Below are positions 13,335-36,782 of a DNA stretch of 64,000 nt, piece after piece. Numbering within the stretch: position 1 is the stretch's first letter; the number at the start of each line of letters is the position of its first letter. The position numbers and the translations under genes were made by a program. The DNA comes from Gemmobacter caeni (GTDB taxonomy: Bacteria > Pseudomonadota > Alphaproteobacteria > Rhodobacterales > Rhodobacteraceae), in the NCBI RefSeq assembly GCF_003054195.1, contig NZ_QBKP01000007.1, positions 186,001 to 250,000 of the forward strand, written 5' to 3'. A model generated the notes under the pieces. The model was not told where the DNA came from. It saw nothing but the letters and a program-made list of their open reading frames with translations, and did no database searches.

Positions 13335-14026
13335 GCGCCGTCCAGTTGCGCGACCAGGCATGTGGCGGCGGCATCCAGTGCGGCTACGGTACCTGACAGG
13401 TCGAGCGGCTGGGCGCTGACCACGCCCAGACAGGCTTCGATCCCGGCACGGCTAAGGAACCCCGCGCGCAGCGGCACGGCGATACCATGCGCGCCCGGCT
13501 GCAATTCGCCGCTGGTCGCCGACCATCCGTCCCGCCGCGCCTGCACCACCTGCGCGCTGTCACCGGGCTGCGGTGACCGGGCTGACAAGATCGCGATGCC
13601 CGCCGCGCCGCGCCCGATGGGATGGCGGGCGCCGACGCGATAGGTAATCTCCAGCAGCCCGCTCTTGCCCGGACTGGTCAGCAGCGCCAGACAGTCCTCG
13701 CCCGCCGCGACCGAAAGGAAGGCCGTCTGCCCGGTATCACGGGCCAGCGCATCCACCGCTTCTTGCCCGTGCAGCCGCAGGCGGGCATGGACTCCCTGCA
13801 TCAGCGGCAAGAGCCCCGGCCCGAGGATCGCCGTGCCATCCGCCAGCCGGGTGACGAAGGCATGCGCCTCCAGCGTGGCGACCAGCCGGTAACAGATACG
13901 CCGGTCCACCCCCAGCGCCAGCGCCAGCGCCGCCATGCCAATCGGCCCGCGCGCGGCAATGACGCTCAACGCCTGCAAGCCGCGGTCGAGGGTCTGCACC
14001 CGTTCGGGAGTCGTTGCAGTTGACAC
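13331..14026 (-). CDS. IclR-family transcriptional regulator
   Basis: A 231-residue regulator starting at GTG (14026). The N-terminal winged HTH contains TLDRGLQALSVIAARGPIGMAALALALGVDRRICYRLVATLEAHAFV in outline, and a C-terminal IclR effector domain follows (RVGARHPIGRGAAGIAILSA). It is divergent from the P450 fusion gene, and a perfect 20-bp palindrome lies between them at 14055-14074. It probably controls the P450 gene in response to an aromatic or organic-acid ligand, and may autoregulate. Confidence 0.9.
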   Translation of the reverse strand: MSTATTPERVQTLDRGLQALSVIAARGPIGMAALALALGVDRRICYRLVATLEAHAFVTRLADGTAILGPGLLPLMQGVHARLRLHGQEAVDALARDTGQTAFLSVAAGEDCLALLTSPGKSGLLEITYRVGARHPIGRGAAGIAILSARSPQPGDSAQVVQARRDGWSATSGELQPGAHGIAVPLRAGFLSRAGIEACLGVVSAQPLDLSGTVAALDAAATCLVAQLDGA

Positions 14027-14054
14027 GAGCGCCGCCCTTTCTGTAGCGTCAAAT

Positions 14055-14074
14055 ATAGCACATTTATGTGCTAT
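14055..14074. promoter_or_regulatory. Perfect palindromic operator between IclR and P450 genes
   Basis: ATAGCACATTTATGTGCTAT has 9-bp arms with no mismatch around a 2-bp centre. It is in an AT-rich 85-bp divergent gap, 29 bases upstream of the IclR start codon and 37 bases upstream of the P450 start. IclR-family dimers bind sites of this size and shape. Confidence 0.75.
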
Positions 14075-14111
14075 TATCGCTCATATATCAAGCCGCAGGG
14101 GAGGATCGCCA

Positions 14112-16382
14112 ATGACCACCGGATGCCCGGCCCATGCTGATGGCGCAGCCTGCCCCGTGTCGGACCGCGCCCGCGCCTTCGACCCGTTCACCGGCGCATA
14201 TCAGATCGACCCCGCCGCCGCGCTGGCCTGGTCACGGGCGGAGGAGCCCGTGTTCTACAGCCCCGAGACCGGCTATTGGGTGGTCAGCTGCTATGCCGAT
14301 GTGAAGGCGGTGTTCCGCGATCCATTGCTATTTTCTCCGTGCAATGTGCTGGAAAAGATCACCCCCTTCCCCGACGAAGCGATGGCTGTGCTGGCCTCCT
14401 ATGGCTATGCGATGAACCGGACGCTGGTGAACGAGGACGAACCCGCCCATACCGAACGCCGTCGCATGCTGATGGCGCATTTCCTGCCCGCCAATATTGA
14501 GGCGCACCGCGACCGTGTGCGGGTGCTGACGCGCGAGAAGGTGGATGCTTTCATCGCCAAAGGCCGTGCCGATCTGGTGGAGGAGATGCTGTGGGAAATC
14601 CCGCTGACGGTGGCGCTGCATTTCCTTGGTGTGCCGGAAAGTGACATGGCCCGCCTTCGCGAGTTCTCCATGGCGCATACCGTCAACACCTGGGGCCGAC
14701 CCTCGCGCGAGGATCAGATCGCGCTGGCGCATGAGGTGGGCCGGTTCTGGCAGTTCGCGGGCGAGGTGCTGAACCGGATGCGGGCGGAACCCCACGGCCA
14801 GGGCTGGATGCATGAGGCGATCCGGCAGAACGCCCTGCACCCTGACATCGTGACCGACAGCTATCTTCATTCGATGATGATGGCGATTATCGTCGCGGCG
14901 CATGAGACCACCGCCCATGCAGCGGCCAATGCGATCAAGCTCTTGCTGACCGATGGCGCGGGCTGGCGCGCGATCTGCGAGGATGCGGCGCTGATCCCCA
15001 ATGCGGTGGAGGAATGTCTGCGCTATGCTGGGTCTGTAGTGGCCTGGCGGCGGCAACTGACTTCGCCCGCCACAGTGGGTGGCACCGATTTGCCTGCGGG
15101 AGCGAAGCTGCTGATCGTCATGGCCAGCGCCAACCATGACGAACGCCAGTTCCAGAATGCCGACAGTTTCGACATCTACCGAGATAATGCCACCGATCAT
15201 CTGACCTTCGGTTATGGCGCGCATCAGTGCATGGGCAAAAACCTTGCCCGGCTGGAACTGCGCATCATCCTTGAGGAACTGTCCCGCCGCCTGCCGCATC
15301 TGCGCCTGGCCGAACAGGAATTCACCTATCTGCCCAATACCTCGTTCCGGGGGCCGGATCACCTTTGGGTGGAATGGGATGTTGCCGCCAATCCGGCAGA
15401 GGGGGCCGAGCGGGCGCGGTTCGAGATCGGCGCCCCGCGTCGCAAGGACATCGCCCGCAGCGTGGTGGTGACAGCGGTGCAGACGGAGGTTGAAGGCGTC
15501 ATCTCTCTGCATCTGGCCGATCCGCAGGGACGGCCGCTGCCGCGCTGGACCCCCGGTGCGCATGTGGATCTGGAGCTTGATGGCTTTGATCGCAGCTATT
15601 CGCTCTGCGGCGACCCGGATGCGCCGGGCTATACCGTCTCGATCCTGCGTGAAGAGGCCGGGCGCGGCGGCTCGCGTCGTTTCCACGCAGTAACACCCGG
15701 CACGGTGCTGCGGCTGCGCGGGCCGCGCAATCACTTCCCGCTGGACGAGGCGGCGCCTGCGCATCTGCTGATTGCGGGCGGTATCGGAATCACGCCGATC
15801 CTGGCCATGGCTGACCGGCTGAAACGGATCGGGGCGCGCTATCATCTGCATTACCTTGGCGGGGCCGAGGCGCGGATGGCGCATCTGGCGCGGCTGAGCC
15901 GCGATCACGCGGGGCAGGTGGCGGCGCATCCGCGCGACCGCGCACCACGCGCCGATCTGGCGGCACTGGTCGCCGCTGCTCCGCCGGGCACCCGCATTTC
16001 CGCCTGCGGCCCGGCGCGGATGCTTGAGGCCCTGCAAACCCTGACGGCCACGCGCCCCGATCTGGTGCTGGCCATCGAGCATTTCAGCGCGGGCGACGAT
16101 ACCGACCTTGCCGACAACCGTCCCTTCGAGGTCGAACTGGCCGACAGCGGCTTCACCCTGCCCGTGCCTGCCGACCGTACCCTGTTGCAGGTTCTGCGCG
16201 CGGCTGGCATCGACATCGCCTCGGATTGCGAGGAAGGGTTGTGCGGCAGCTGCGAAGTCGCGGTGCTGGATGGCACGGTCGATCATCGCGACAAGGTGCT
16301 GAGCATTGCGGAAAGGGCTGCGGGCACCCGGATGATGTGCTGCCGCTCGCGCGGCGCGGGGCGGCTGAAACTGGCGCTTTAA
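14112..16382 (+). CDS. Self-sufficient cytochrome P450 monooxygenase (CYP116B-like P450-FMN-[2Fe-2S] fusion)
   Basis: The 756-residue protein contains a full P450 domain. The oxygen-activation helix is AAHETTAHAAANAIK, the ExxR helix is VEECLRYAG, and the heme loop is FGYGAHQCMGKNLAR with the thiolate at about Cys373. A phthalate-dioxygenase-reductase-type module follows: FMN site DRSYSLCGDP, NAD site LIAGGIGITPILAMADRL, and C-terminal ferredoxin with CEEGLCGSCEV (about Cys706, 711, 714) and a final Cys in MMCC. This order is that of P450RhF/CYP116B enzymes, which need no partner proteins. The natural substrate is unknown. It is controlled by the divergent IclR regulator. Confidence 0.95.
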   Translation: MTTGCPAHADGAACPVSDRARAFDPFTGAYQIDPAAALAWSRAEEPVFYSPETGYWVVSCYADVKAVFRDPLLFSPCNVLEKITPFPDEAMAVLASYGYAMNRTLVNEDEPAHTERRRMLMAHFLPANIEAHRDRVRVLTREKVDAFIAKGRADLVEEMLWEIPLTVALHFLGVPESDMARLREFSMAHTVNTWGRPSREDQIALAHEVGRFWQFAGEVLNRMRAEPHGQGWMHEAIRQNALHPDIVTDSYLHSMMMAIIVAAHETTAHAAANAIKLLLTDGAGWRAICEDAALIPNAVEECLRYAGSVVAWRRQLTSPATVGGTDLPAGAKLLIVMASANHDERQFQNADSFDIYRDNATDHLTFGYGAHQCMGKNLARLELRIILEELSRRLPHLRLAEQEFTYLPNTSFRGPDHLWVEWDVAANPAEGAERARFEIGAPRRKDIARSVVVTAVQTEVEGVISLHLADPQGRPLPRWTPGAHVDLELDGFDRSYSLCGDPDAPGYTVSILREEAGRGGSRRFHAVTPGTVLRLRGPRNHFPLDEAAPAHLLIAGGIGITPILAMADRLKRIGARYHLHYLGGAEARMAHLARLSRDHAGQVAAHPRDRAPRADLAALVAAAPPGTRISACGPARMLEALQTLTATRPDLVLAIEHFSAGDDTDLADNRPFEVELADSGFTLPVPADRTLLQVLRAAGIDIASDCEEGLCGSCEVAVLDGTVDHRDKVLSIAERAAGTRMMCCRSRGAGRLKLAL

Positions 16383-17125
16383 CGCCCTTTCAGCTTGTCC
16401 ATCACTGCGTCGCAGGCGGCCTCCCATCCCGCACTGACGTCATGCGCTTTCAGTATCTGAAAGCCGCGTTCGGTGATGCCGCCGGGGGTGACAAGTTCGT
16501 GCAGCATCTGCGCCATCGGCTCGTGCTTGCTGTCGATCAGCGCCCCGGCCGCCGCGAAGGTCAGCGCGTTCAGCCGCCGCGCCACCAGTGGGTCAAGGCC
16601 CTGCGCGGCTGCCCATTCAGCGCTGCGCGCGATGAGATCCTGCGCCCAGCCATAGATCGCGGCGGAAACCGTGGCGATTTCAAACTCCGCCTCGCTGGTT
16701 AAGGGGATGACGGGCCCAAGTGCCTCCAGTAACCGTCGAGCTTCGGGCAGATCAGGGAAGCAGGCGGTCGGGCTGGCACCGACCTCGGCCGCCGTCAGGG
16801 GCATGATGCGCATGCGCCGGGCAGGGCCTGTGTCCAGCGCCGCAATTGGCACACCGGCGCAGGCCGAAACCAGCACCTGCCTCGCGCGCCACGGCAGCCC
16901 CGCCACCGCGCCGGGTGCCGCCGCTGGCCGCACCGCGAGCAGGACCAGATCGCAGCGCGCCACCAGATCGGCATTGTCGCGGGCTAGCGGATGCCCGTAT
17001 CGCACCGCCATCTCTGCCGCCCGGCCACGCGGCGACAGCAGCACCTCGCCGGGCGCGAACCCCGCCCGGTGCAGCCCCGCCAGCAGCGCCGCCGCCAGAT
17101 GCCCGATTCCGATGATCCCCAGCAT
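16379..17125 (-). CDS. Pyrroline-5-carboxylate reductase-like NADP-dependent oxidoreductase
   Basis: A 248-residue protein with an N-terminal Rossmann motif (IIGIGHLAAALLAGLHRAG, residues 3-21), where a His replaces the usual third-position small residue (GxGxxA becomes GIGHLA). The C-terminal helical domain carries MAQMLHELVTPGGITERGF, matching the P5CR dimerisation/active-site segment. It is slightly shorter than typical ProC (about 270 residues). It may be a true ProC or a paralog acting on another cyclic imine. It is divergent from the B12-binding protein gene, and its stop shares TTAA with the P450 stop. Confidence 0.8.
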   Translation of the reverse strand: MLGIIGIGHLAAALLAGLHRAGFAPGEVLLSPRGRAAEMAVRYGHPLARDNADLVARCDLVLLAVRPAAAPGAVAGLPWRARQVLVSACAGVPIAALDTGPARRMRIMPLTAAEVGASPTACFPDLPEARRLLEALGPVIPLTSEAEFEIATVSAAIYGWAQDLIARSAEWAAAQGLDPLVARRLNALTFAAAGALIDSKHEPMAQMLHELVTPGGITERGFQILKAHDVSAGWEAACDAVMDKLKGR

Positions 17126-17233
17126 CTTGCCCCCTTTTCCTTGCCGTATCCTCGTCCGCAGAAACGGCCCAGGCAAGGGCTGGCGCGCAGGCTGCGCCGC
17201 GCTATCCTGCCGCTGACCCCTGCGAGAGCGATC

Positions 17234-18949
17234 ATGTCCGAATCCCCGCCGCTCACTGACCCGCGCCTTCCTCCCGGTGCTGAACTTCTGTCGCGTGGCC
17301 GCGCGCTTGCCCGTGACTGGCGCGTCGGCCCTTGCCCGTTCTTCGCCGAGAAGGCTGTGACGTCCGAGGCGGAATGGAAGCGCCGCATCGGTAACAGCCG
17401 CATCATGCAGCACGCCCATATCGGTTTTCGCAATGTCGACCGCACGCTGGGCGCCATTGCCGAGGTGCATGACCGCTGTGCCGCCCAGAGCGTGACGGTG
17501 GATCGCTTCGGCATCACGCTCGACTGGTCGATGGGCTATCCGCAGGCGCTGCGGGAAAAGGCTGCGCGTGGCACCGGCATCGTGCTGACGGGGCCGGAAG
17601 ATTTCGCCCGCATCACCCATGCCGCCCCCGCCGCCGCGCATTTCGGCGATTTCATGATCGGCCTGCCGGGCTGTGTGGAAAACACCTGCGCCGCGCTGGC
17701 GGCAGGCGCCACCTCGGTCGGCAATCTGGGGCAGTATTTCACCTTCCGCCTGCCCTATTGGAACGATGACGTGGCGACGACCGAGGCGACCGTTACCGCC
17801 CTTGGCCTGATTGCCGCACAAGAAACGCAGGTGCTGGTGCATTCAAACCTCGATGACGGCTTCGCGGGGCTGTTTCTGGACATGGCCTCGGCGCTTGGCA
17901 TGGTGCTGGTGGAAAAGCACATCGTCGAAGGGCTGATCGGCGCACGGCTGGCGCATTGCTATGGCCACCATTTCAGCGACCCGCTGTCGCGCATGGCCTT
18001 CCATGCCGCGCTGGCGCGGGTGACAGACCCGCCGGGCACCATGATCTTTGGCAATACCGTCGCCTATCAGGCTGGGTCTGCGGGGAATTATGCAAGCCTT
18101 GCGAGCTATCTTCTGGCTGACATGATGGCGCTGGGTCGCTGGGCCACGGGGCATGCGGTGAACCCTGTGCCGGTGACAGAGAACCAGCGCATTCCCGATG
18201 TCGATGAAATTGTCGAGGCTCAGGCTTTTGCCCGTCGCCTGGCCGATCACGCGCCGCATCACGCCGCGCTGACCGACTGGCACCGGGTCGAGGCGCTGGC
18301 CGACCGGCTGGTCGCCGGGGGACGCGCCTTCGCGCAGGCGGTGCTGGCCGGGCTGGCCGACCGGGGTGTGCCGGAGGACGACCCCGCGGCCCTGTTGCTG
18401 GCGATCCGCCGTATGGGGCCGAAACGACTGGAGGCGCTGTTTGGGCAAGGCCCGCTGGCCGCGCGCGGTCGGGCGCCATTGGTCGCCGCCGAATGGGCGC
18501 GCGAACTGGATGAAAAGGCCGAACGCTGGGTCGCCGGGCAAACCGCGCTGCCGCGCCGTCTGCGGGTCTGTGTCGGCACCAGCGATGTGCATGAACATGG
18601 CAAGTATCTGGTCGAACAGGCGCTGGAAGGTATGGGCGTCGAGGTTCTGGACGGTGGCGTCAGCACAGATCCCGAAGCGCTGGTCGCGCAAGCCTTGGCT
18701 GAAGGGGCCGAGGCGCTGGCGATCAGCACCTATAACGGCGTGGCGCTTGGTTACGCGCAGGCTGTGATGGCGGCGCTGAACCAGAGCGGGGCGACGCTTC
18801 CGGTTCTGATCGGCGGCAAGCTGAACCAGATCCCCGATGCGTCAAACACCGGCCTCCCGGTTGATGTGACGGCGGAGATTGCGGCCCTTGGCGCCACGCC
18901 CTGCGCGGGGCTGGATGACATGCTGCCCGCGCTGCGAAAGCTGCTATAG
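17234..18949 (+). CDS. Cobalamin-binding protein: MutE-like TIM barrel fused to a B12-binding domain
   Basis: The 571-residue protein ends in a B12-binding domain (about residues 445-571). The base-off/His-on motif DVHEHG places D451, H453 and G456 in the DxHxxG pattern. An AISTYNG segment follows where the SxL motif belongs, and LIGGKLNQ supplies the GG motif. Residues about 60-390 look like a TIM barrel with distant resemblance to the glutamate mutase E chain, including a GNTVAYQAGSAGNYASLASYL stretch. This suggests an adenosylcobalamin-dependent isomerase with both parts on one chain, unlike two-subunit glutamate mutase. The substrate is unknown. It is convergent with ptb, and their stop codons are adjacent (18944-18949). 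Confidence 0.72.
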   Translation: MSESPPLTDPRLPPGAELLSRGRALARDWRVGPCPFFAEKAVTSEAEWKRRIGNSRIMQHAHIGFRNVDRTLGAIAEVHDRCAAQSVTVDRFGITLDWSMGYPQALREKAARGTGIVLTGPEDFARITHAAPAAAHFGDFMIGLPGCVENTCAALAAGATSVGNLGQYFTFRLPYWNDDVATTEATVTALGLIAAQETQVLVHSNLDDGFAGLFLDMASALGMVLVEKHIVEGLIGARLAHCYGHHFSDPLSRMAFHAALARVTDPPGTMIFGNTVAYQAGSAGNYASLASYLLADMMALGRWATGHAVNPVPVTENQRIPDVDEIVEAQAFARRLADHAPHHAALTDWHRVEALADRLVAGGRAFAQAVLAGLADRGVPEDDPAALLLAIRRMGPKRLEALFGQGPLAARGRAPLVAAEWARELDEKAERWVAGQTALPRRLRVCVGTSDVHEHGKYLVEQALEGMGVEVLDGGVSTDPEALVAQALAEGAEALAISTYNGVALGYAQAVMAALNQSGATLPVLIGGKLNQIPDASNTGLPVDVTAEIAALGATPCAGLDDMLPALRKLL

Positions 18950-19846
18950 CGCGGCGGCCTGCCCGGCCCGCAGCGCAGCGGCCAGCAGCAGACCCAGCCA
19001 GCGCTGCTCTGCCCCGTCTGCGCGCGAATTCAGCAGGATCGGCACGCGCCCGCCCAGCACAAGGCTGGCGGTGCGGGCATGGCCATGAAGTTTCCACGCC
19101 TTGACCGTGGCATTGCCCGCCTCGATGGACGGAAACAGGATCAGATCGGCGCGACCGGCCACCGCCGAGGCCAGCCCCTTCTTTGTGGCAGCGGCTGCCG
19201 ACAGCGCCACGTCATAGCCGAATGGCCCGTCAACCAGCGCACCGGAGATCTGCCCGGCGGCGGCCTCGGTAGCCAGAGCGCTGGCATCTGCCGTCGCAGG
19301 CTGGCTGGCGCTGACCTTTTCAGAGGCCGCAATGGCGGCAACCCGCAGGGGCGTGACGCCAAGACCCCGGAACAGCGGCACCGCATTCAGGATCATGGCG
19401 CGCTTCTGGTCCAGTGTCGGCAAGGGCACGATGCCATTGTCAGTGGCGCCGATCAGCCGGTCGAGGCCGGGCATTTCGGCCAGCGTCAGGTTTGACAGCG
19501 TGGCCGAGGCGCGCAGGCCGGTTTCCCGCGCCACCACGGCGCGCAGATAGGCGGCGCTGTCGATCCGGCCTTTCACCAGCACATCGGCGCGCCCCGCCCG
19601 CACTTCGGCCACCGCAACAGCGGCTGGGTCGTGGGTATCGGCGATTTCCACCCTCATACCGGGGGGCAACATTGGGCGCAACAGGGCCGCGTCATCGGCA
19701 AGAAAGGCACCGGCGATCAACCCGCGCGCCTGCGCCTCGGCCAGCGCCTCCAGAACCGCAGGATCGGCGGCCCCGGCGACAGCGGGGCGCAGGGGGCGGC
19801 TGCCTTTCAGTGCGCGTTCCAGTTCGGTGAAGCTGCGGATCACCAT
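18944..19846 (-). CDS. ptb: Phosphate butyryl/acyltransferase
   Basis: The 300-residue protein belongs to the phosphate acetyl/butyryltransferase family. Typical segments are VLVKGRIDSAAYLRAVV, a YDVALSAAAATKKG stretch, DLILFPSIEAGNATVKAW and GGRVPILLNSRA near the C-terminus. It interconverts acyl-phosphate and acyl-CoA. The start overlaps the end of the butyrate kinase gene by 7 bases, so the two enzymes are made together and probably convert a carboxylic acid to its CoA ester through the acyl-phosphate. The length suits Ptb better than the longer Pta or PlsX-type proteins. Confidence 0.88.
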   Translation of the reverse strand: MVIRSFTELERALKGSRPLRPAVAGAADPAVLEALAEAQARGLIAGAFLADDAALLRPMLPPGMRVEIADTHDPAAVAVAEVRAGRADVLVKGRIDSAAYLRAVVARETGLRASATLSNLTLAEMPGLDRLIGATDNGIVPLPTLDQKRAMILNAVPLFRGLGVTPLRVAAIAASEKVSASQPATADASALATEAAAGQISGALVDGPFGYDVALSAAAATKKGLASAVAGRADLILFPSIEAGNATVKAWKLHGHARTASLVLGGRVPILLNSRADGAEQRWLGLLLAAALRAGQAAAL

Positions 19847-20940
19847 GGCATCGGCTCCACCTCGGGGGTTGGCGGCCAGACCCGCGCAATCTCCTGCCCG
19901 GCCAGAACACGGGCCGCCCCCTCGGCCAGTGCCGCGCTTTCGTGACTGCCGGGATAGCAGACCACAGGTGCCAGTGCCGAACAGCGGGCGGTGATCGCCG
20001 CGCGCAGCCGGGCCGATTGCGCCATGCCGCCGGTCAGCAGCACCGCATCGGGCCGGAAGTCCAGCACCGCCGCCATGGCGCCGATAGCCTTCACGATCTG
20101 ATAGACCATGGCCTGCCAGACCAGATCGGCCCGCGCGTCGCCCGCGTCGATCATCGCCTCGACCTGGCGCATGTCCTTGGTGCCCAGATAGGCGAAAACC
20201 CCGCCCTGTCCGTAAAGCCGCCGCTTCAGCGCGGTCTTGTCATAACCGCCGGAATAGCACAGATCGATCAGTGCCATCGGTGGCAGCCCGCCTGCGCGTT
20301 CCGGGGAAAAGGGCGAATTTTCCATCCGGTTGGTGCTGTCGACGATCCGCCCGCCCTTCAGCGCGGCAATCGAAATGCCCGCACCCAGATGGGCGACCAC
20401 GGCATCCAGCGCGGCGAAAGGCTTGCCCAACTCGCCTGCCAGCCTGCGTCCGCAGGCCCGGATATTCAGCGCATGCACGAAGGAAAAGCGGGGGATGTCC
20501 GGGCAGCCCGATATACGGGCGACAGGCGGCAGTTCATCCACCGACACCGGATCGACGATGAAGGCCGGGCAGCCCGCCGCCGCCGCGATACGCTGCGCCA
20601 GCGGCGCCCCGAGGTTCGAGGCATGCGGATGCAGTGGCCGGTGCAGCGCAAAATCCACCAGCGCGTCATCGACGGCGATCACCCCTGGCGGCACCGGCGT
20701 CAGCATCCCGCCACGCCCTGCCACGGCCACCAGCCGAACCGAAGGGCGGCCGCGCAGGAAAGCCGTAATTGCCTCGGCCCGGAACGGCAGTTGTGCGGCG
20801 ATGTCGGGGAAAGCGGCCATGACCGTCTCGTCATGGTCCAGCGTCACTTCGGCCAGCGCCCGCACCCCGGCGCCATCCGAGGTGAACAGGCCCAGCCGCG
20901 TCGTCGTGGTGCCGGGATTGATGGTCAGGATCGCATCCAT
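19840..20940 (-). CDS. buk: Butyrate kinase
   Basis: A 366-residue ASKHA-fold kinase. The N-terminal phosphate loop is TINPGTTTTRLGLF (residues 6-19), the second phosphate motif is VVAHLGAGISIAALKGG, and the adenosine motif is VLLTGGMAQSARLR. Sequence and length fit butyrate/branched-chain fatty acid kinases rather than acetate kinase (about 400 residues). It phosphorylates a short-chain carboxylate with ATP. It lies in the gabT-ALDH-buk-ptb operon, 3 bases after the aldehyde dehydrogenase stop. Confidence 0.9.
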   Translation of the reverse strand: MDAILTINPGTTTTRLGLFTSDGAGVRALAEVTLDHDETVMAAFPDIAAQLPFRAEAITAFLRGRPSVRLVAVAGRGGMLTPVPPGVIAVDDALVDFALHRPLHPHASNLGAPLAQRIAAAAGCPAFIVDPVSVDELPPVARISGCPDIPRFSFVHALNIRACGRRLAGELGKPFAALDAVVAHLGAGISIAALKGGRIVDSTNRMENSPFSPERAGGLPPMALIDLCYSGGYDKTALKRRLYGQGGVFAYLGTKDMRQVEAMIDAGDARADLVWQAMVYQIVKAIGAMAAVLDFRPDAVLLTGGMAQSARLRAAITARCSALAPVVCYPGSHESAALAEGAARVLAGQEIARVWPPTPEVEPMPW

Positions 20941-20943
20941 GGC

Positions 20944-22383
20944 CTAACCCGCGAAACTATAAGAGGTTTTAACCGTGGTATAGAACTCCGCCGCGTGGCG
21001 GCCCTGCTCGCGAGGGCCAAGCGAGCTGCCTTTGGTTCCACCGAAAGGCACATGGTAATCCACCCCGGCGGTCGGCAGGTTCACCATGACCATGCCCGTC
21101 CGCGCCTGACGGCGGAACTCCCGCGCGTGCCGCAACGAGGTGGTGCAGATCCCCGCGGACAGGCCAAAATCACTGTCATTCACCACCACCAGCGCCTCGT
21201 CAAAATCCGCGACGCGGATGACGGCGGCGCAGGGGCCAAAGATTTCCTCCCGCGCCACGCGCATGTCGTTGCGGGCGTTCAGGAACAGGGCGGGGCGCTG
21301 GAAATGCCCCTCGGTCGGCAGGTCCAGCCGTTCGCCGCCGACCACCTCGCAGCCCTCGGCGCGGGCCAGATCGACATAAGACAGGTTTCCGGCAAGTTGC
21401 TGTACGGAAACCACCGGGCCGATCTGGCTGTCAGGCGCCAGCGCCGGGCCGACACGCAACGCCATCATCTGCCGCGTCAATTCCGCCACGAAGGCATCGT
21501 GAATCCCCGACTGCACGATCAGCCGCGACGAAGCGGTACAGCGTTGCCCGGTCGAAAAGAACGCGCCGTTCAGACAGGCTGCAACGGCGGTGGGCAGGTC
21601 GGCGTCATCCAGCACCACCATCGGGTTCTTGCCGCCCATTTCGAGCTGCACTTTCTTCATCCTCTCGGCCGCCGCGCGGGCGATGGCGCGCCCCGTCGGG
21701 ACCGAGCCCGTGAAGGAAATCGCCCCGATCTGCGGCGCCTCGACCATGGCGCGGCCCACAACCGAGCCCGGCCCCATGACGAGGTTGAACACCCCCGCCG
21801 GGCAGCCCGCCTCATGGATGATCCGGGCGAGCATATGGGCGGTGCCGGGCACCAGTTCAGCGGGTTTCAGCACCACTGAATTGCCATAGGCCAGCGCGGG
21901 CGCGATCTTCCACGCCGGGATGGCGGCGGGAAAGTTCCATGGGGTGATCAGACCGACCACGCCTACCGGCTCGCGTGTGACTTCGATGTCGACGCCGGGG
22001 CGGACAGAGGCCAGCGCCTCGCCCGACATGCGCAGCGCCTCGCCCGCGAAGAAGCGGAAGATCTGCGCCGCGCGGCGGGTCTCGGCCAGCGCTTCGGGCA
22101 GGATCTTGCCCTCCTCGCGCGCGAGCTTGGTGGCGATGTCTGTCGCGTCGGCCTCGATCCGGGTGGCGATGCGGTCCAGCAGATCGGCGCGCGCCTGCGG
22201 ACCGGCGGCAAACCAGCCGGGTTGCGCAGCCGCCGCCGCCCCGGCTGCCGCAGTCACATCCCCGGCGGTGCCTGCGGCATAAAGCCCGATCAGATCCGCG
22301 AGGTCCGAGGGGTTGCGGTTTTCACTCAGATGATCGCCCGGCACCCATGCGCCGTTGATCAGGTTCAGATGCGGGTCAGACAT
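20944..22383 (-). CDS. NAD(P)-dependent aldehyde dehydrogenase
   Basis: The 479-residue protein has the full ALDH pattern: substrate/cofactor segment TPWNFPAAIPAWKIAPALA, NAD-binding SFTGSVPTGRAI, the catalytic-base motif LEMGGKNPMVVLDDADL, and the nucleophile in FFSTGQRCTASS. The C-terminal FGGTKGSSLGPREQG resembles 2-oxoglutarate-semialdehyde dehydrogenases. I start it at 22383 because the protein opens with the normal family N-terminus there (NLINGAWV); a longer frame upstream lacks support. Placed between gabT and buk, it should oxidise the semialdehyde made by the transaminase. Confidence 0.9.
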   Translation of the reverse strand: MSDPHLNLINGAWVPGDHLSENRNPSDLADLIGLYAAGTAGDVTAAAGAAAAAQPGWFAAGPQARADLLDRIATRIEADATDIATKLAREEGKILPEALAETRRAAQIFRFFAGEALRMSGEALASVRPGVDIEVTREPVGVVGLITPWNFPAAIPAWKIAPALAYGNSVVLKPAELVPGTAHMLARIIHEAGCPAGVFNLVMGPGSVVGRAMVEAPQIGAISFTGSVPTGRAIARAAAERMKKVQLEMGGKNPMVVLDDADLPTAVAACLNGAFFSTGQRCTASSRLIVQSGIHDAFVAELTRQMMALRVGPALAPDSQIGPVVSVQQLAGNLSYVDLARAEGCEVVGGERLDLPTEGHFQRPALFLNARNDMRVAREEIFGPCAAVIRVADFDEALVVVNDSDFGLSAGICTTSLRHAREFRRQARTGMVMVNLPTAGVDYHVPFGGTKGSSLGPREQGRHAAEFYTTVKTSYSFAG

Positions 22384-22457
22384 GGCAGGCTCCGGGCAAA
22401 GCAGGGCCGCGCCCTGCCGGTGGGGCAGGGCGGGCGTCGCGCAAGGGTGGCTTGGGA

Positions 22458-23753
22458 TCAGGCGGCGCGGGCCGTCACGGCGGCCTCGATCGAGGCTTCG
22501 ATGATGTCCAGTGCCTCGTTCAGCTGATCCATCGGGATGGTCAGTGGCGGCAGCAGGCGGATGACGTTGTAGCGCGTGCCGCAGGACAAGAGGATCAGCC
22601 CGCGCGCCTCGGCCTCGGCCACGACGGCGGCGGTGAGGGCGGCGTCGGGGCCGTTGGTGGCGCGGTCGGTCACCAGTTCCAGCGCGTTCATCGCACCAAG
22701 CCCGCGCACCTCGCCAATACACTCCATTCCCTGCCGGGCCGCGATCTGGGTCAGGCGGGCGCGGATCACCTCGCCAATCTCGGCGGCGCGCAGGCAAAGC
22801 TGTTCATCCCCGATCACATCCAGCACGGCATGGGCCGCGGCCACCGCCAGTGGGTTGCCGGCATAGGTACCACCGACACCGCCGGGGTTCGGCGCATCGA
22901 CGATCCCGGCGCGGCCGGTCACCGCCGAAAGCGGGAAACCACCGGCCAGCCCCTTGGCCATGGTCACCAGATCGGGGGCGACGCCGGAATGATCAAAGCC
23001 GAACATGCGGCCGGTGCGGGCCATGCCGGCCTGCACCTCATCTGCGATCAGCACGATGCCATGTTGGTCACAAATCTCGCGCAGCGCGCGCAGGAAGCTG
23101 AACGGAGCGATATTGAAACCGCCTTCCCCCTGCACAGGTTCGATGATTATGGCGGCTACCCGCTCCGGGTCCACGGACGAGGCGAAAAGCCGCTCCAGAT
23201 GTCCCAGCGCATCGGCCTCGGTCACGCCGTGGAAGGCGTTCGGGAAAGGGGCATGTACGATTTCGGGCGGCATGGCCCCGAAGCCCTTCTTGTAGGGCGC
23301 AACCTTGCCGGTCAGTGCCATACCCAGCAGGGTGCGGCCATGGAAGGCGCCCGAAAAGGCGATGACGCCTGACCGCCCGGTGAAGGCGCGGGCCATCTTG
23401 ATGGCGTTTTCCACCGCCTCGGCGCCGGTCGTTACCAGCATGGTTTTCTTGTCAAAATCGCCCGGCGTTGCCGCATTCAGCCGCTCGGCCAGCGCGATGT
23501 AGCCCTCATAAGGTGCGACGTGGAAGCAGGTATGGGTGAAGGCCTGCGCCTGTTCTGCGACGGCGGCCATCACACGCGGGTGGCGATGGCCAGTGTTGTT
23601 CACTGCGATCCCGGCGGCGAAATCGAGGAAGCGGCGCCCCTCGGCATCCCAGAGTTCGGCGTTTTCGGCGCGGGTTGCATAGATACCGCGCGTGGCGACG
23701 CCACGGGCGACGGCGGCGGATTTGCGGCTGGCAAGGCGGGCGGATTCGGACAT
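22458..23753 (-). CDS. gabT: Class III omega-aminotransferase (4-aminobutyrate transaminase type)
   Basis: A 431-residue PLP enzyme with strong GabT features: FAAGIAVNNTGHRHP, VTTGAEAVENAIKMAR, the FSGAFHGRTL motif, EPVQGEGGF, the cofactor Asp in LIADEVQAGMARTG and the PLP lysine in MAKGLAGGFPLSA. It transfers an omega-amino group to 2-oxoglutarate, giving a semialdehyde for the ALDH at 20944. GABA, 5-aminovalerate or a related omega-amino acid are all possible substrates. It is the first gene of its operon and is divergent from the XRE-cupin regulator. Confidence 0.9.
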   Translation of the reverse strand: MSESARLASRKSAAVARGVATRGIYATRAENAELWDAEGRRFLDFAAGIAVNNTGHRHPRVMAAVAEQAQAFTHTCFHVAPYEGYIALAERLNAATPGDFDKKTMLVTTGAEAVENAIKMARAFTGRSGVIAFSGAFHGRTLLGMALTGKVAPYKKGFGAMPPEIVHAPFPNAFHGVTEADALGHLERLFASSVDPERVAAIIIEPVQGEGGFNIAPFSFLRALREICDQHGIVLIADEVQAGMARTGRMFGFDHSGVAPDLVTMAKGLAGGFPLSAVTGRAGIVDAPNPGGVGGTYAGNPLAVAAAHAVLDVIGDEQLCLRAAEIGEVIRARLTQIAARQGMECIGEVRGLGAMNALELVTDRATNGPDAALTAAVVAEAEARGLILLSCGTRYNVIRLLPPLTIPMDQLNEALDIIEASIEAAVTARAA

Positions 23754-23791
23754 TGCACTCTCCGGGGCTATACGGTGATTCTGTGTATCAA

Positions 23792-23809
23792 TGCTCAATA
23801 TATTGAGCA
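23792..23809. promoter_or_regulatory. Perfect 18-bp palindrome with adjacent TATAAT, candidate XRE-cupin operator
   Basis: TGCTCAATATATTGAGCA is a perfect palindrome in the divergent gap 23754-23898. A TATAAT hexamer follows at 23811-23816 on the plus strand, so the palindrome fills the region between -35 and -10 of a promoter reading towards the regulator. It is also 39 bases upstream of the gabT start. Binding here would control both directions. Confidence 0.7.
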
Positions 23810-23898
23810 ATATAATGCGGTGTGGCAATGCGCTGCATGGCAAAAGATTGCGCGCTTTCGGTGGGCTGACTATGCTGTGCAAAACCAAGGGGTTCGGC

Positions 23899-24477
23899 AT
23901 GCAGGATTTCGATGTGGGCGCGCGGCTGAAGCAGATGCGGCAGGCAGCAAACCTGTCGCAACGGCAATTGGCCGAGGCCTCGGATGTGCCGCATGGCCAG
24001 ATTTCGATGATCGAGACCAACCGCTCCAGCCCTTCGGTCTCGTCCCTGCGCAAGATTCTGGGCGGTCTGGGCGTCACCATGTCGGAATTCTTTGAACCCG
24101 ATGCCCCGGTCACCCAAGCGTTGTTCTTCAAGCCGCACGAGCTGCGCGATCTGACCACCCGGCTTTATTCGACGCTGGAAGGTCCGCGCGGGCGGATCAC
24201 CTTGCAACAGGTCGGGGACGCGCGGGCGCATAACCTGCAAATCCTTTACGAACGCTATGAGCCCGGCGCCGATACCGGCGAGCAGATGCTGGAACATGCC
24301 TCGCATGAGGGGGGCGTGGTGGTGGCGGGGGAAATCGAGGTGACGGCGGGCGACCATTGCGCGGTGCTGAAGGCGGGCGACAGCTATCTGTTCGATTCGA
24401 CTCTGCCACACCGCTTTCGCAACATCGGCGACCGCGAGGCGCTGGTGGTTTCGGCCTGCACGCCGCCCTATCTGTAA
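23899..24477 (+). CDS. XRE-family regulator with C-terminal cupin domain (PuuR-like)
   Basis: A 192-residue protein. The N-terminal HTH_3 domain reads RLKQMRQAANLSQRQLAEASDVPHGQISMIE in outline (residues 9-40), and a cupin_2 sensor domain follows, ending HASHEGGVVVAGEIEVT and GDSYLFDSTLPHRFRN. This architecture matches PuuR, the repressor of putrescine/GABA catabolism in enterics. An AAGGGG box precedes ATG 23899; an alternative ATG at 23872 would add nine residues. It is divergent from gabT and probably controls the gabT-ALDH-buk-ptb operon. Confidence 0.88.
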   Translation: MQDFDVGARLKQMRQAANLSQRQLAEASDVPHGQISMIETNRSSPSVSSLRKILGGLGVTMSEFFEPDAPVTQALFFKPHELRDLTTRLYSTLEGPRGRITLQQVGDARAHNLQILYERYEPGADTGEQMLEHASHEGGVVVAGEIEVTAGDHCAVLKAGDSYLFDSTLPHRFRNIGDREALVVSACTPPYL

Positions 24478-24480
24478 GAT

Positions 24481-24503
24481 GCGCACCCCGTAACGGGGCG
24501 CGC
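24481..24503. terminator. Bidirectional hairpin between convergent genes
   Basis: GCGC and CCCCG (24481-24490) pair with CGGGG and GCGC (24494-24503) across a 3-base loop, with one A-C mismatch. It lies between the XRE-cupin stop and the stop of the convergent binding-protein gene. No T-run is present on either side. Confidence 0.45.
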
Positions 24504-24510
24504 CATTGCC

Positions 24511-25686
24511 TCACTTGCCCAGCAGCACATCCAGCGGAACGGGCTGAGAGATCTGCCATTCATCGACCCGCGCGGGCTTGCCGCCGGTGATCTCGACAAT
24601 CTGCATCAGCGCGGTGTTCTGGTGGTGCAGCTCGGCGCTGAAGCTGCGCGGGCCGAAGGCGGTGGGTTCGGCCTGCATCTTTTCCAGTTCGGCGGTGACG
24701 GCGGCGCCATCCACGGTGCCCGCGCGTTCCACCGCCTTGGCCCAGAGGTCGATCAGCACATAGCCGGGATAGGCATACTGGCTGGCCGGACGCGCGCCGG
24801 TCCTGGCCTCATATGCGGCGTTGAAGGCCTCGACCTCGGGGCGGGGATCGTCACCGTAGATCGTTCCTTGCACCGGCAGCGCAAAGCCCGAAAGCCCCGG
24901 TACCGCATCCAGCCAGTAAGACCCGTCCACCGCCGAGCCATTGAGGATCAGCGCCTCGATCCCCGCCGCGCGGATCTGGCGCACTGCCGCCGCTGCACCG
25001 GGCATGACCGAGCAGAGCATGATCACATCGGGCGTCTTTTCCAGCGATTTGATGCGTGTGATCTGGCTGGCGATGGAGGCATCGTCGTTCTTGAAAGTGT
25101 CGCGGCCGAGGATCTCTGCGCCTTCCAGTTGCGGGAACATCCAGTCAAAGCCGGTGCAGATGCCCTTGTTATATTCGATAAAGGTGTCTTCCAGCACGAA
25201 GGCGGTGCGGGCGTCGCGTTTTGCATAGGCCCATTCCGCCATGGTCGCGCCTTGCACCGGCGCGAGGACAGACGACGAAAAGCTGTTCGGGCCAACACCC
25301 TGCAACCCGGCTTTCACATCCTCGGCGCAGAGAAAGAAGCTGTTCATTCCTTCGCCCTCCGCCACCAGCGCTGCGGGGGCGCCAAAGTCATAGTCGCAGG
25401 ACACGACCATCATCTGCGCGCCCTGATCCAGCACGTCGAGCCCGGCCTTGGCGGCCTCGGCCCGGTCGGTGCGGGTGTCGGCCTCCACCACCTTGATCTG
25501 CTGGCCCAGCAGACCACCCGCGGCGTTGATTTCCTCGATACGGATTTTCGCGGCGGTGGCGGCAGGGGTGTCATAGGCTTCCATCCAGCCGGATTTGGCG
25601 ATGGCGAAGCCGACGGTGATGTCATCGGCGGCACGGGCGGGCGCGGTCAGCGCCAGCAGGGCCAGCAAAGAGCAGGCGTATTTCAT
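24511..25686 (-). CDS. Branched-chain amino-acid-type periplasmic binding protein (LivK-like)
   Basis: The 391-residue protein has a Sec signal peptide (MKYACSLLALLALTAPARA, cleaved before AD) and a type I periplasmic-binding fold. Segments include ITVGFAIAKSGWMEAYD, the IEEINAAGGLLGQQI motif common to Liv-type receptors, and a VDAVPGL..G-F hinge. It is the last gene of the hyuB-hyuA-livGFHM operon, so its ligand is probably the cyclic amide or aromatic compound processed by the hydantoinase-like enzyme. It follows livM by 24 bases. Confidence 0.9.
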   Translation of the reverse strand: MKYACSLLALLALTAPARAADDITVGFAIAKSGWMEAYDTPAATAAKIRIEEINAAGGLLGQQIKVVEADTRTDRAEAAKAGLDVLDQGAQMMVVSCDYDFGAPAALVAEGEGMNSFFLCAEDVKAGLQGVGPNSFSSSVLAPVQGATMAEWAYAKRDARTAFVLEDTFIEYNKGICTGFDWMFPQLEGAEILGRDTFKNDDASIASQITRIKSLEKTPDVIMLCSVMPGAAAAVRQIRAAGIEALILNGSAVDGSYWLDAVPGLSGFALPVQGTIYGDDPRPEVEAFNAAYEARTGARPASQYAYPGYVLIDLWAKAVERAGTVDGAAVTAELEKMQAEPTAFGPRSFSAELHHQNTALMQIVEITGGKPARVDEWQISQPVPLDVLLGK

Positions 25687-25710
25687 GGCAAGTCTCCTGT
25701 TGGATCCGGG

Positions 25711-26763
25711 TCAGTTTTGCGATGTGCCGCGCCCGGTGACCCAGCGGGCGGGCAGCATGATCTCGCGCCCGGCCATCAGACCGGCGGGGCGAAAGACAAG
25801 GACGAGGATCATCGCAACGGCGATGATGATTTCCTGACTGCCGGGGGGCAGGGCGAAGGTGGCGGTGCCCAGGGTGAAGCCCTTCTCCAGCCGCACCAGC
25901 GCCTCCACCGCCAGCGACACTGCCAGCACGCCGATCACCGCGCCCGAAAGCGAGCCGATGCCGCCGACCACCAGCATGGCAAGCATGAGGAAGGTCAGGC
26001 TCAGGTAGAACCCGTCAGGATTGATGACACCGATGAAGTGCCCGGCCAGCGCCCCGCCCACGCCGCAGAAGAAAGCCGACAGCGTATAGGCCAGCAGGCG
26101 GTGGCGGTATTGGTCGATACCGGAGGCAGAGGCCGCCACCTCATCCTCGCGCGTGGCGCGCAGGGCGAGGCCTGAGGCAGAGGCGGCGTAAAGGCTTGCG
26201 GCAAGGATCGCGGCGATGGCCCAGCCAAGTGCCACCCAAGGGGTGACATAGCGCGCCAGCCCCACGACAGACGAAGTACCGCCGGTGACGGGCGTCCAGT
26301 TCGCCCAGATCGTGTTGACCATGGCAAGAAAGGCGAAAGTGGCGATGGAGGCGGCGATGCCCGAAAGGCGCAGGATGGCGGCCCCGGTCACCAGCGCCAG
26401 CGCGGCTGCCACCAGCCCGGCGGTCAGCGCGGCGGGCAGGACATGCCAGTGCGCCTCGGCCAGTGCGGGTGGCAGGCCGGGCAGCAGCGTCGCCTTCATC
26501 GCGGGGTTCAGCGTCGTCCAGGCCGAGACATAGGCGCCCACACAGGCAAAGGCGGCATGGCCAAAGCTGATGACCCCGGAATTGCCGGCGAAGATCCAGA
26601 ATCCTACGACCAGCGTGACCCGGATCAGGGTCTCTGACGCCATGCGTGCGGCGGCGCGGTCGCCGAGCGCAAGGGTCAGTGCCACGAAGGCCAGTAGCAG
26701 TAGCGCCAGCAGGATCGGTGTGGTGGTCGCCATGCGGCGGCGGATACGGTGTTGCGTGATCAT
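25711..26763 (-). CDS. livM: Branched-chain amino-acid-type ABC permease (LivM)
   Basis: A 350-residue polytopic membrane protein with the LivM signature: GNSGVISFGHAAFACVGAYVSAW near the N-terminus, an EDEVAASASGID cytoplasmic loop and VGGIGSLSGAVIGV towards the end. It pairs with LivH (26767) to form the membrane channel, powered by LivG and LivF. The first 30 residues include a basic stretch before the first helix. The spacing from livH is 3 bases, consistent with one operon. Confidence 0.92.
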   Translation of the reverse strand: MITQHRIRRRMATTTPILLALLLLAFVALTLALGDRAAARMASETLIRVTLVVGFWIFAGNSGVISFGHAAFACVGAYVSAWTTLNPAMKATLLPGLPPALAEAHWHVLPAALTAGLVAAALALVTGAAILRLSGIAASIATFAFLAMVNTIWANWTPVTGGTSSVVGLARYVTPWVALGWAIAAILAASLYAASASGLALRATREDEVAASASGIDQYRHRLLAYTLSAFFCGVGGALAGHFIGVINPDGFYLSLTFLMLAMLVVGGIGSLSGAVIGVLAVSLAVEALVRLEKGFTLGTATFALPPGSQEIIIAVAMILVLVFRPAGLMAGREIMLPARWVTGRGTSQN

Positions 26764-26766
26764 GGC

Positions 26767-27675
26767 TCAGACCCTTGGTTTGGCGTCGGCGGCGGCGAAC
26801 AGGCCCTGCGGGCGGAACAGCAGGACGACGATGACCAGCGCGTAAAGGAAGGCATCGCGGAACGGTCGCGCCGCATCGGGCAGACCGGCTTGCAGCAGGG
26901 CGGAGGCCGCGCCGATTGCCAGCCCTGCAGCCACGGCGCCGGGCAGGCTGCCCATGCCGCCAACCACGGTGGCGATGAAGGCGATCAGCATGATCTGCCC
27001 ACCCATCCGCACATCGGCGACCCCGGTCTGTGCCACCATGACCAGCGCGACCACTGCCGCCAGCGCCCCGGAAAGCGCGAAGGCACCCGAGATCACGCGG
27101 TTCGCCCGCACGCCCAGCAGTTGCGCCATGCCGAAATCTGCCGCTGCGGCGCGCATCTCCAGCCCGAGGCGCGAGCGTTTCAGCATCAGGCCAAGTGCGA
27201 GCAGGATGGCGATGACCGCCGCAATGACGATCAGTTGCAGCAAGGGCACCTCGGCCGGGCCAATGCGCACCGGGGCGCCCAGCCCGGCCCAGAGGCTGAT
27301 CGCCTTGGGCCGCCCGCCATAAAGCACCAGCAAGAAGTTTTGCAGCGCCACGCCAAGCGCGAAACTGCCCACCATCAACGCCACGGGCGAGGCATTGCGC
27401 AGCGGCCGGAACACCAGCGCTTCGGCTGCCACGGCAAGCCCCGCGCCGAAGCCAAGGATCGCCAGGATCAGCAGCGGCGTGGGCAACAGGCCCAGCCCCA
27501 GCGCCGCCACCGCATCGGTGGAGGGCAGGATCAGCGCGAAGACCGCGCAGGCGATGAACTGGCCATGGGCAAAGTTCACCAGCTTCATCACGCCGAAGAT
27601 CAGCGCGATCCCCAGCGCCGCAATGGCATAGATACCGCCCAGTGACAGGGCGTCGAACAGAAGTTGCAGGCTCAT
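26767..27675 (-). CDS. livH: Branched-chain amino-acid-type ABC permease (LivH)
   Basis: This 302-residue membrane protein opens with the standard LivH N-terminus (LGGIYAIAALGIALIFGVMKLVNFAHGQF in outline, residues 11-39). It ends with VGGMGSLPGAVAAGLAIG, the conserved cytoplasmic coupling segment. I chose the ATG at 27675 because it overlaps the livF stop by 4 bases and begins just before the first helix; a longer frame reading into livF is an artefact of overlap. It partners LivM. Confidence 0.92.
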   Translation of the reverse strand: MSLQLLFDALSLGGIYAIAALGIALIFGVMKLVNFAHGQFIACAVFALILPSTDAVAALGLGLLPTPLLILAILGFGAGLAVAAEALVFRPLRNASPVALMVGSFALGVALQNFLLVLYGGRPKAISLWAGLGAPVRIGPAEVPLLQLIVIAAVIAILLALGLMLKRSRLGLEMRAAAADFGMAQLLGVRANRVISGAFALSGALAAVVALVMVAQTGVADVRMGGQIMLIAFIATVVGGMGSLPGAVAAGLAIGAASALLQAGLPDAARPFRDAFLYALVIVVLLFRPQGLFAAADAKPRV

Positions 27676-28394
27676 GCCGGGTCTCCGAAATAGGCTTCCG
27701 ACAGCAGGTCGGCGGCGGCGAAACCGGCGGCATCGCCATCGGCGACGATGCGTCCGCCACGCATCAGGATCATGCGCCCGCCCACCCGCGCGGCGCGGGT
27801 CGAGGATTGTTCGACGATCACCAGCGTCAGCCCGCGCAGGGCTTGCAGGCTGCACAGCCGGTCATAGACCTCGTCCACCACCTTGGGCGCGAGGCCGAGC
27901 GAGGGTTCATCAACCAGCATGACCTTGGGGTTGGTCATCAGCGCGCGGGCGATGGCCAGCATCTGTTGCTGGCCGCCCGACAGCGCGCCCGCCGGGGCCT
28001 GGGCGCGGGTACGCAGGATGGGAAAGGCGGTAAAGGCCGTCTCCAGATCGTCGGCGACAGCGGCCCGGTCACGGCGGATGCCGGTGCCGACCATCAGGTT
28101 CTCCTGCACGGTCAGCCCGCCAAAGATACGCCGCCCCTCCGGCACCATCGACAGCCCGCGCCGCGCGATGCGTTCGGGGCCAAGGCCGGAAAGGATGTCG
28201 CCATCCATCTCGATCCGGCCATGCGCCGCAGGCACCGCGCCCGAGATCGCGCCCAGAAGCGAGGATTTGCCCGCACCATTGGGGCCGGAAATGAACAGCC
28301 GCTCCCCTTCGGCCACGGTGAAGGACAGATCGGAAATCGCGGTCAGCTTGCCGTAGCGCACCGCAAGGTCATGGATGCCCAGCTTCGCCATCAT
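27672..28394 (-). CDS. livF: Branched-chain amino-acid-type ABC ATPase (LivF)
   Basis: A 240-residue ATPase with Walker A GPNGAGKSSL, the signature LSGGQQQMLAIARAL and Walker B VMLVDEPSLGLAP followed by the switch region. The short form without extra C-terminal insert and the LSGGQQQ signature identify LivF rather than LivG. Two consecutive ATG codons (28394 and 28391) are available for initiation. It overlaps the livG stop by 4 bases and the livH start by 4 bases. Confidence 0.93.
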   Translation of the reverse strand: MMAKLGIHDLAVRYGKLTAISDLSFTVAEGERLFISGPNGAGKSSLLGAISGAVPAAHGRIEMDGDILSGLGPERIARRGLSMVPEGRRIFGGLTVQENLMVGTGIRRDRAAVADDLETAFTAFPILRTRAQAPAGALSGGQQQMLAIARALMTNPKVMLVDEPSLGLAPKVVDEVYDRLCSLQALRGLTLVIVEQSSTRAARVGGRMILMRGGRIVADGDAAGFAAADLLSEAYFGDPA

Positions 28395-29119: not shown

Positions 29120-29120
29120 C

Positions 29121-31241: not shown

Positions 31242-31274
31242 GGGTTGCGGTCCTTTGGGATGGTGGGGCCGGAC

Positions 31275-31293
31275 GGGGGGCTGTCTGCCCCCC
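31275..31293. repeat. GC hairpin and AT-rich box resembling a dispersed Rhodobacterales intergenic element
   Basis: In the 89-base gap between the B and A subunit genes, six G (31275-31280) face six C (31288-31293) across a 7-base loop. The hairpin is followed by CCCCCCGAGGATATTTTT at about 31297-31314. From memory, this combination of a C/G hairpin plus GAGGATATTTT recurs in intergenic spaces of Rhodobacteraceae genomes. I see only one copy here. It may attenuate or stabilise the mRNA between the two cistrons. Confidence 0.4.
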
Positions 31294-31330
31294 GAACCCC
31301 CCGAGGATATTTTTCGACAGAAAATGGGGA

Positions 31331-36438: not shown

Positions 36439-36467
36439 CTTGACTCGCGCAGCCCCCGGACCCTAGA
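36439..36467 (+). promoter_or_regulatory. Sigma70-like promoter for the B12 operon
   Basis: TTGACT at 36439-36444 and CTAGAT at 36462-36467 are separated by exactly 17 bases. Transcription would begin around 36474, just before the conserved riboswitch core. The preceding 224 bases (36215-36438) show no gene; I see nothing else there. Confidence 0.6.
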
Positions 36468-36473
36468 TCGCAG

Positions 36474-36645: not shown

Positions 36646-36782
36646 GGATCACCCTTTCCGGGCGCGAGGGGCGCCATGGAAGCGGCCTTAACCGCAGCGG
36701 TGACAGCAAGCACTGTCTGCGGAGCCCTTTCCGCGACACATCGGGTCTGTCGGGCATTTGCCCGCGATTGGGAGAACGGAAC

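Follow-up and report, generated by a model that had tools for sequence, protein, structure and literature searches.

The locus studied here raises the question of which reaction is catalysed by the product of a gene, MUT, a protein with a predicted cobalamin-binding domain and AdoCbl-mutase fold and no named family. The window is the whole stretch of DNA that was analysed, 64,000 nucleotides in length. The features discussed below are listed in Table 1.

Table 1. Positions of MUT, its predicted parts and its neighbours in the window
Feature	Position	Strand	Basis
ProC-like gene (pyrroline-5-carboxylate-reductase paralogue), divergent neighbour	16379..17125	-	PF03807, PF14748; start codon inferred
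Divergent intergenic region, ProC-like gene to MUT, 108 bp	17126..17233	.	coordinates
MUT (AdoCbl-mutase-fold enzyme gene)	17234..18949	+	open frame, 571 aa plus stop; conserved family
Predicted TIM barrel, residues about 58-345	17405..18268	+	AlphaFold2 model; conservation
Helical linker, residues 346-443	18269..18562	+	secondary structure of model
Cobalamin-binding Rossmann domain, residues 444-571	18563..18946	+	Pfam B12-binding; PDB matches 2yxb, 4r3u, 1bmt
DxHxxG motif (D451, H453, G456); H453 as predicted lower axial cobalt ligand	18584..18601	+	sequence; 94/96 rows
GG motif (G527-G528)	18812..18817	+	100% over 95 sequences
PTB	18944-19846	-	phosphate butyryltransferase 209 bits, below cut-off 410
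Butyrate kinase	19840-20940	-	TIGR02707 376 vs 289

The MUT gene and its predicted fold

Translation of MUT showed no internal stop, and the gene is intact. The in-frame ORF is open already from position 16991, upstream of 17234. Because the alignments of most relatives begin at MUT residues 1-15, the start at 17234 is favoured. A scan of genome contigs gave 233 stretches with a MUT relative (E <= 1e-3), some perhaps with the cobalamin domain only, and the best 80 of these 233 were taken as loci, among which the closest named relative was that of Gemmobacter lutimaris (95%). MUT was found in 4 of 11 genomes of the genus, its own included. In large genome searches, where scoring covered the best 3-4 candidates of each genome, a full-length match was obtained in 12 of the 289 genomes of the class sample (own genome included), the remaining class-sample matches listed covering no more than the C-terminal, cobalamin-domain part; in the phylum sample a match was found in 4 of 398 genomes, all four from the same class. 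Full-length copies in the plasmid records examined carry the name 'cobalamin-dependent protein' or 'hypothetical protein', or have no listed gene. On one contig of another genome of the same genus (G295), the MUT homologue is split into two frames near residue 361 (L053 and L055), which we read as a frameshift or an assembly error.

The cobalamin domain was identified by Pfam B12-binding, which matched MUT residues 449-530 with an E-value of 3e-9 (37.2 bits, cut-off 32.1) and all 48 aligned members, window included. This bears out the C-terminal DxHxxG...GG motif of base-off/His-on type that the earlier note had described. The window is among the rows that carry DxHxxG, and the two that depart from it, L050 and L054, keep D-x-H without the G. 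Residue conservation was taken over 95 sequences, leaving out L050 (the most distant row, 34%); the MUT tree, made with a quick method, has 96 rows, with L033, L036, L052, L053 and L124 dropped.

The AlphaFold2 model of MUT (48 sequences; mean pLDDT 92.6, pTM 0.93) has strands and helices in alternation over the barrel region, so that the barrel and cobalamin domain proposed earlier for a single chain were both recovered. Fifteen barrel residues are 100% conserved over the 95 sequences (H60, R66, D97, M100, H136, D139, N164, Q167, R172, H203, D207, D208, T275, H307 and E316), and all of them lie at or near the C-terminal ends of strands in the model. No Pfam barrel family was matched in the 48 members at E-values up to 10, and no NCBIfam was found for the barrel of the window protein; 16 Pfam families besides B12-binding gave weak matches in 1-3 members each (best E 0.0013). 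No named Pfam or NCBIfam family was assigned to MUT, in agreement with the statement in the earlier note that no named enzyme was recognised.

The model was compared with the PDB by Foldseek. Ranks 1-18 were methylmalonyl-CoA mutases (best E 2.8e-13), the top one with a TM of 0.48 by query and 15 A over the whole chain. Rank 19 was methionine synthase (E 3.7e-9, TM 0.26), ranks 21 and 22 were glutamate mutase E (1.7e-8; TM 0.54 by target, 5.6 A), rank 23 was ornithine 4,5-aminomutase 3kow_B (5e-8) and rank 39 was lysine 5,6-aminomutase 8t0v_A (3.7e-5). The methionine synthases listed had TM values of 0.19-0.36, against 0.43-0.49 for most mutases, and the TM of the barrel to PDB folds was moderate throughout (0.54 or less). 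The ranking therefore indicates an AdoCbl-mutase fold for MUT, with moderate similarity. Enzymes known to combine such a fold with this motif are either mutases or aminomutases. The features by which the superfamily is recognised, a TIM barrel (here predicted) and a cobalamin Rossmann domain with DxHxxG...GG, were found together in MUT, and we consider it very probable that MUT is an unnamed family within the AdoCbl-mutase superfamily.

Structure prediction and profile search had been proposed in the earlier note as checks. The former found the barrel, with chiefly AdoCbl mutases as the nearest PDB folds at moderate TM; the latter recovered the B12-binding domain and gave no MutE or methylmalonyl-CoA mutase barrel match in Pfam. 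The single chain, which the earlier note had set against the two chains of glutamate mutase, is not special: the methylmalonyl-CoA mutase and OraE chains matched by Foldseek carry both domains, and L139 and L140 have a MutE barrel (PF06368) behind an N-terminal part that is MutS-like by eye, on a single chain.

Methylmalonyl-CoA mutase resembles MUT in having one chain with the barrel followed by a C-terminal cobalamin domain and the same motif. However, the two share 15% identity, MUT is 165 residues shorter than the 736-residue chain, and PF01642 (MM_CoA_mutase barrel) was not matched by any of the 48 members in Pfam. In OraE, PMC3958899 places the PLP lysine (Lys629) 11 residues after the cobalt His618. 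The corresponding MUT residue at His +11 is Leu464, and Leu is found there in 87% of the family. D-ornithine 4,5-aminomutase OraE and lysine 5,6-aminomutase thus share the fold class with MUT but not the PLP lysine, and membership of PLP class III (OAM/LAM) was rejected. The main candidate for a putative kinship is 2-methyleneglutarate mutase, an enzyme with one chain, a C-terminal cobalamin domain and a non-CoA substrate.

Genes that recur beside MUT

ORFs of the loci were clustered to count recurring neighbours. The counts below refer to 99 of the 101 loci collected, window included, with the repeats L033 and L052 left out; each locus was cut to 4-36 kb, close relatives are numerous, some contigs are short, and neighbours were assigned to families from representative proteins.

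The gene divergent from MUT in the window encodes a protein with the NAD(P) and dimerisation domains of P5CR (PF03807 4e-12, PF14748 1.4e-10). It scores below the ProC equivalog cut-off (TIGR00112, 109 bits vs 197), whereas another P5CR copy on a different contig of the genome scores above it (244), indicating that the window gene is a paralogue. A ProC-like homologue was found in 64 of the 99 loci, window included. In a set of 20 loci chosen for their distance (34-59% identity), which does not include L035 or L038, the ProC-like gene lies directly downstream of MUT in 12, and the next recurring gene that does not overlap MUT or the ProC-like gene was found in 5. The rough chance expectation is about 1%, from three P5CR-family matches in the 5.1-Mb own genome and stretches of ~20 kb. 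Of the adjacent pairs on the same strand, 8 of 13 overlap by exactly 4 bp (longest ORFs), which suggests that MUT and its ProC-like partner may be translationally coupled in such pairs. In L035, a gene of another P5CR subfamily stands beside MUT (NF005063, 308 vs 254).

A second setting was found in 16 loci, where MUT lies between an upstream 4-hydroxyproline-epimerase-type gene and a downstream second gene of the proline-racemase family (centres within 3.3 kb). Eight of these loci are from Ancylobacter, three from Brucella/Ochrobactrum, two from other Xanthobacteraceae and one each from Bosea, Methylocapsa and Lichenifustis. A D-amino-acid-dehydrogenase-type gene is present in every one of the 16, and a DHDPS-family gene in 13. 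In the type locus, L112, the epimerase scores above its cut-off (NF010578, 574 vs 376), and the D-amino-acid dehydrogenase and DHDPS score below their equivalog cut-offs and are assigned at family level only; its first racemase-family protein has a Cys/Cys pair and the second a Ser/Cys pair. PMC4113996 describes a Ser/Cys pair for a 4HypE cluster, and a trans-4-hydroxyproline route of 4HypE, D-amino-acid oxidase, DHDPS-type deaminase and ALDH. Since an ALDH like that of the window was found in none of the 16 loci, the published route is incomplete there. The ProC-like gene was likewise found in none of the 16, and across the 99 loci it occurs together with a racemase-family match only in L035. 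Both L035 and L070 have DHDPS, DAO, ALDH and racemase-family genes near MUT. Neither partner was found in 18 of the 99 loci, 7 of them on stretches under 16 kb.

The active-end barrel residues are 100% conserved across ProC-type and hydroxyproline-type loci. As these residues are identical in both contexts, MUT likely has, judging from sequence, a single chemistry with two follow-up gene sets. The context labels cluster on the MUT tree (20 changes, against a shuffled mean of 52.4), and the deepest well-sampled split, with support of 82 and 81 and no star, has ProC-type loci in both of its branches.

Many rhizobial loci have a larger cluster, with genes for a KstD-like FAD enzyme (30/99), Asp-dehydrogenase family (49/99), cupin (46/99), alpha/beta hydrolase (43/99), acetoin-type dehydrogenase E1 alpha (30/99), 3HCDH (27/99), GntR (38/99), NIPSNAP (22/99) and a protein without firm Pfam family (33/99). 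SDRs and parts of a branched-chain-type ABC transporter are also present in the rhizobial clusters. Separately, a phytanoyl-CoA-dioxygenase-family gene lies upstream of MUT in 6 of the 99 loci (L117, L128, L124, L092, L133 and L046; centres 1.3-2.5 kb apart), that of L117 being Pfam PhyH, and the distant loci L126, L127 and L132 have a common gene cluster that is trimethylamine methyltransferase (MttB)-like by eye from L127.

In the window itself, profile matches confirmed the neighbouring transaminase, ALDH, butyrate kinase and PTB genes that the earlier note had listed, the transaminase being of 4-aminobutyrate type (TIGR00700, 560 vs 507). Their operon is convergent to MUT, with an overlap of 6 bp at the 3' end of MUT. 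Its use as a functional clue did not survive the comparison of loci: only 2 of the 99 loci, the window and G. lutimaris, both Gemmobacter, have PTB and butyrate kinase next to MUT. A functional link was rejected, and the operon is best read as a separate pathway. Beyond it on the same strand are, by eye, genes for a branched-chain-type ABC transporter and HyuA/HyuB-like genes; the whole run (18944-33280, -) could serve to turn a lactam or omega-amino acid into an acyl-CoA. The B12-uptake region that had been placed nearby was found again, marked by a strong cobalamin riboswitch match at 36461-36658 (+; 117.9 bits), about 17.5 kb downstream of MUT and ahead of a gene that is TonB-receptor-like by eye and ends at 38669. 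On the other side, a frame at 13935-16382 (+) resembles by eye a self-sufficient P450 with P450, reductase and 2Fe-2S parts, and the G. lutimaris stretch at the matching place matches Pfam p450.

The reaction of MUT

The reading that we prefer, and to which we give an even chance, is that MUT works alongside a pyrroline-carboxylate-type reductase and, as an AdoCbl radical isomerase, converts an imino acid related to proline or the open-chain form of that acid. By analogy with the superfamily, cobalamin would be bound base-off with His453 as the lower ligand, the Co-C bond would break above the barrel to form the 5'-deoxyadenosyl radical, and this radical would start the rearrangement of the substrate at the C-terminal ends of the barrel strands. 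Gene context points to a proline- or hydroxyproline-related imino acid, or to an open-chain amino acid in equilibrium with a pyrroline, as the putative substrate or product. The P5CR paralogue would reduce (or form) the cyclic imine in most lineages, and the hydroxyproline-type gene set would serve instead in others. For the MUT step itself, the known relatives would suggest a rearrangement of the carbon skeleton and the analogous HypD-P5CR pair a dehydration; either may apply. Several observations speak against this reading. The KstD-like, Asp-dehydrogenase, acetoin-type, 3HCDH and SDR co-genes are superfluous for plain proline or hydroxyproline breakdown; the loci with neither partner do not fit; the hydroxyproline-type loci gave no window-like ALDH, and in L112 the D-amino-acid dehydrogenase and DHDPS fall short of equivalog level; the ProC-like gene is the only one of all recurring partners that adjoins MUT in the window; ProC-like folds are also suited to other imines or to ketones; and the fold matches are moderate in TM, including that to methylmalonyl-CoA mutase. 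The substrate class was kept broad mainly because the rhizobial co-genes do not fit simple hydroxyproline breakdown.

Those same rhizobial clusters, rich in oxidoreductases unrelated to proline, lend some weight to a tentative alternative, in which MUT is an AdoCbl-dependent isomerase or carbon-skeleton mutase whose substrate is some other small acid. Proline chemistry would then play no part, and the ProC-like protein would be just an NAD(P)H oxidoreductase belonging to that pathway. The Foldseek neighbours of MUT, chiefly mutases and aminomutases, agree with this alternative as well. However, the hydroxyproline-type genes that flank MUT in 16 loci are not explained in this way, nor is the recurrence of the P5CR family, which in L035 involves a second subfamily.

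An AdoCbl hydroxyproline dehydratase, which would remove H from C5 and water from C4 and leave P5C to be reduced by the ProC-like protein, would make MUT a B12 counterpart of HypD. In gut Clostridiales, according to PMC7077986, the gene of the glycyl-radical enzyme HypD lies near one for P5C reductase; the same paper gives B12-dependent counterparts for several glycyl-radical eliminases. MUT, too, is accompanied by a P5CR-family gene and lies elsewhere among hydroxyproline genes, although cofactor and family differ from those of HypD and the analogy is one of gene pairing only. We regard the dehydratase as unlikely. The known B12 eliminases of diol-dehydratase type bind cobalamin base-on and have no DxHxxG; moreover, the 16 hydroxyproline-type loci gave no ProC-like gene and possess most of an oxidative route, beside which a dehydratase would be redundant.

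The possibility that MUT is a corrinoid methyltransferase or demethylase was suggested by the cobalamin domain. In the alignment its motif DVHEHGK resembles DVHDIGK of MetH, and with the family profile the domain scored best against methionine synthase (5.2e-12), with B12 mutase next (1e-11) and glutamate mutase 1be1 at 3.8e-7. Methionine synthase also stands ahead of glutamate mutase by E-value in Foldseek, and four helices precede the cobalamin domain in the model. On the other hand, the first 18 Foldseek ranks are methylmalonyl-CoA mutases, the TM values of methionine synthases are lower, and the 17 Pfam families with a match in any of the 48 members do not include the helical cap B12-binding_2. 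These results make a methyltransferase very improbable.

Still less probable is a glutamate mutase isoenzyme with MutE and MutS fused. Glutamate mutase (MutE and MutS) has a TIM barrel and a cobalamin domain like MUT, and the fold class is common to both, but the gene partners differ. The MutE resemblance proposed in the earlier note stood at the level of fold and was not recovered in sequence: none of the 48 members matched PF06368 in Pfam (E up to 10), and hhalign of the MUT family with six MutE barrels, local and global, gave nothing (probability 0.4%), which is weak evidence because both alignments are shallow (Neff about 2.7 each). In NCBIfam, the window protein matched no MutE and the S-subunit domain alone, below its cut-off, and the own genome has no PF06368 match. 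PMC9545868 gives R66, R100 and R149 as the arginine claw of glutamate mutase. A forced alignment, statistically unsupported, placed R66 on H62, R149 on H136 and R100 on R91 across a 3-residue gap, and MUT E316 on MutE E330. H136 and R91 are invariant in the MUT family. Two of the claw arginines thus fall on His, and the match of R91 with R100 is doubtful because R91 starts strand 2 in the model. Methylaspartate ammonia-lyase was absent from the seven window neighbours scanned, unlike the cluster of Gemmobacter fulvus. Membership of the glutamate mutases was rejected on the Pfam results (48 members and own genome) and the hhalign result. The G. fulvus cluster (L143) is a glutamate-mutase/methylaspartate cluster on a plasmid, adjoining a histidine-utilisation cluster, so that Gemmobacter has both kinds of enzyme. 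Another proteobacterial locus, L141, has a MutE barrel on a longer chain (by gene length), its neighbours including an adenylation-domain gene and a gene for an amino acid racemase.

That MUT is an acyl-CoA mutase serving the adjoining transaminase-ALDH-butyrate kinase-PTB operon has a negligible chance of being right: methylmalonyl-CoA mutase is the top fold match, but the adjacency is confined to two Gemmobacter loci, the operon is convergent and the 48 members lack a methylmalonyl-CoA mutase match in Pfam.

Returning to the radical isomerase of proline-related imino acids, a further and rather doubtful step would make MUT the first B12 radical enzyme of proline/hydroxyproline-type metabolism, with a pyrroline carboxylate, formed by dehydration or rearrangement, being reduced by a dedicated P5CR paralogue, so that the two would form a B12 version of the glycyl-radical HypD-P5CR pair. 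A literature search for MUT or for a B12 enzyme of hydroxyproline, its scope lying mostly outside subscription journals, named none among the matches listed. The base-off/His-on AdoCbl mutases have few known reactions, on glutamate, methyleneglutarate, several acyl-CoAs, lysine and ornithine. If the preferred reading is true, MUT would bring a new substrate class to a known superfamily and a testable pathway to rhizobia and their relatives.
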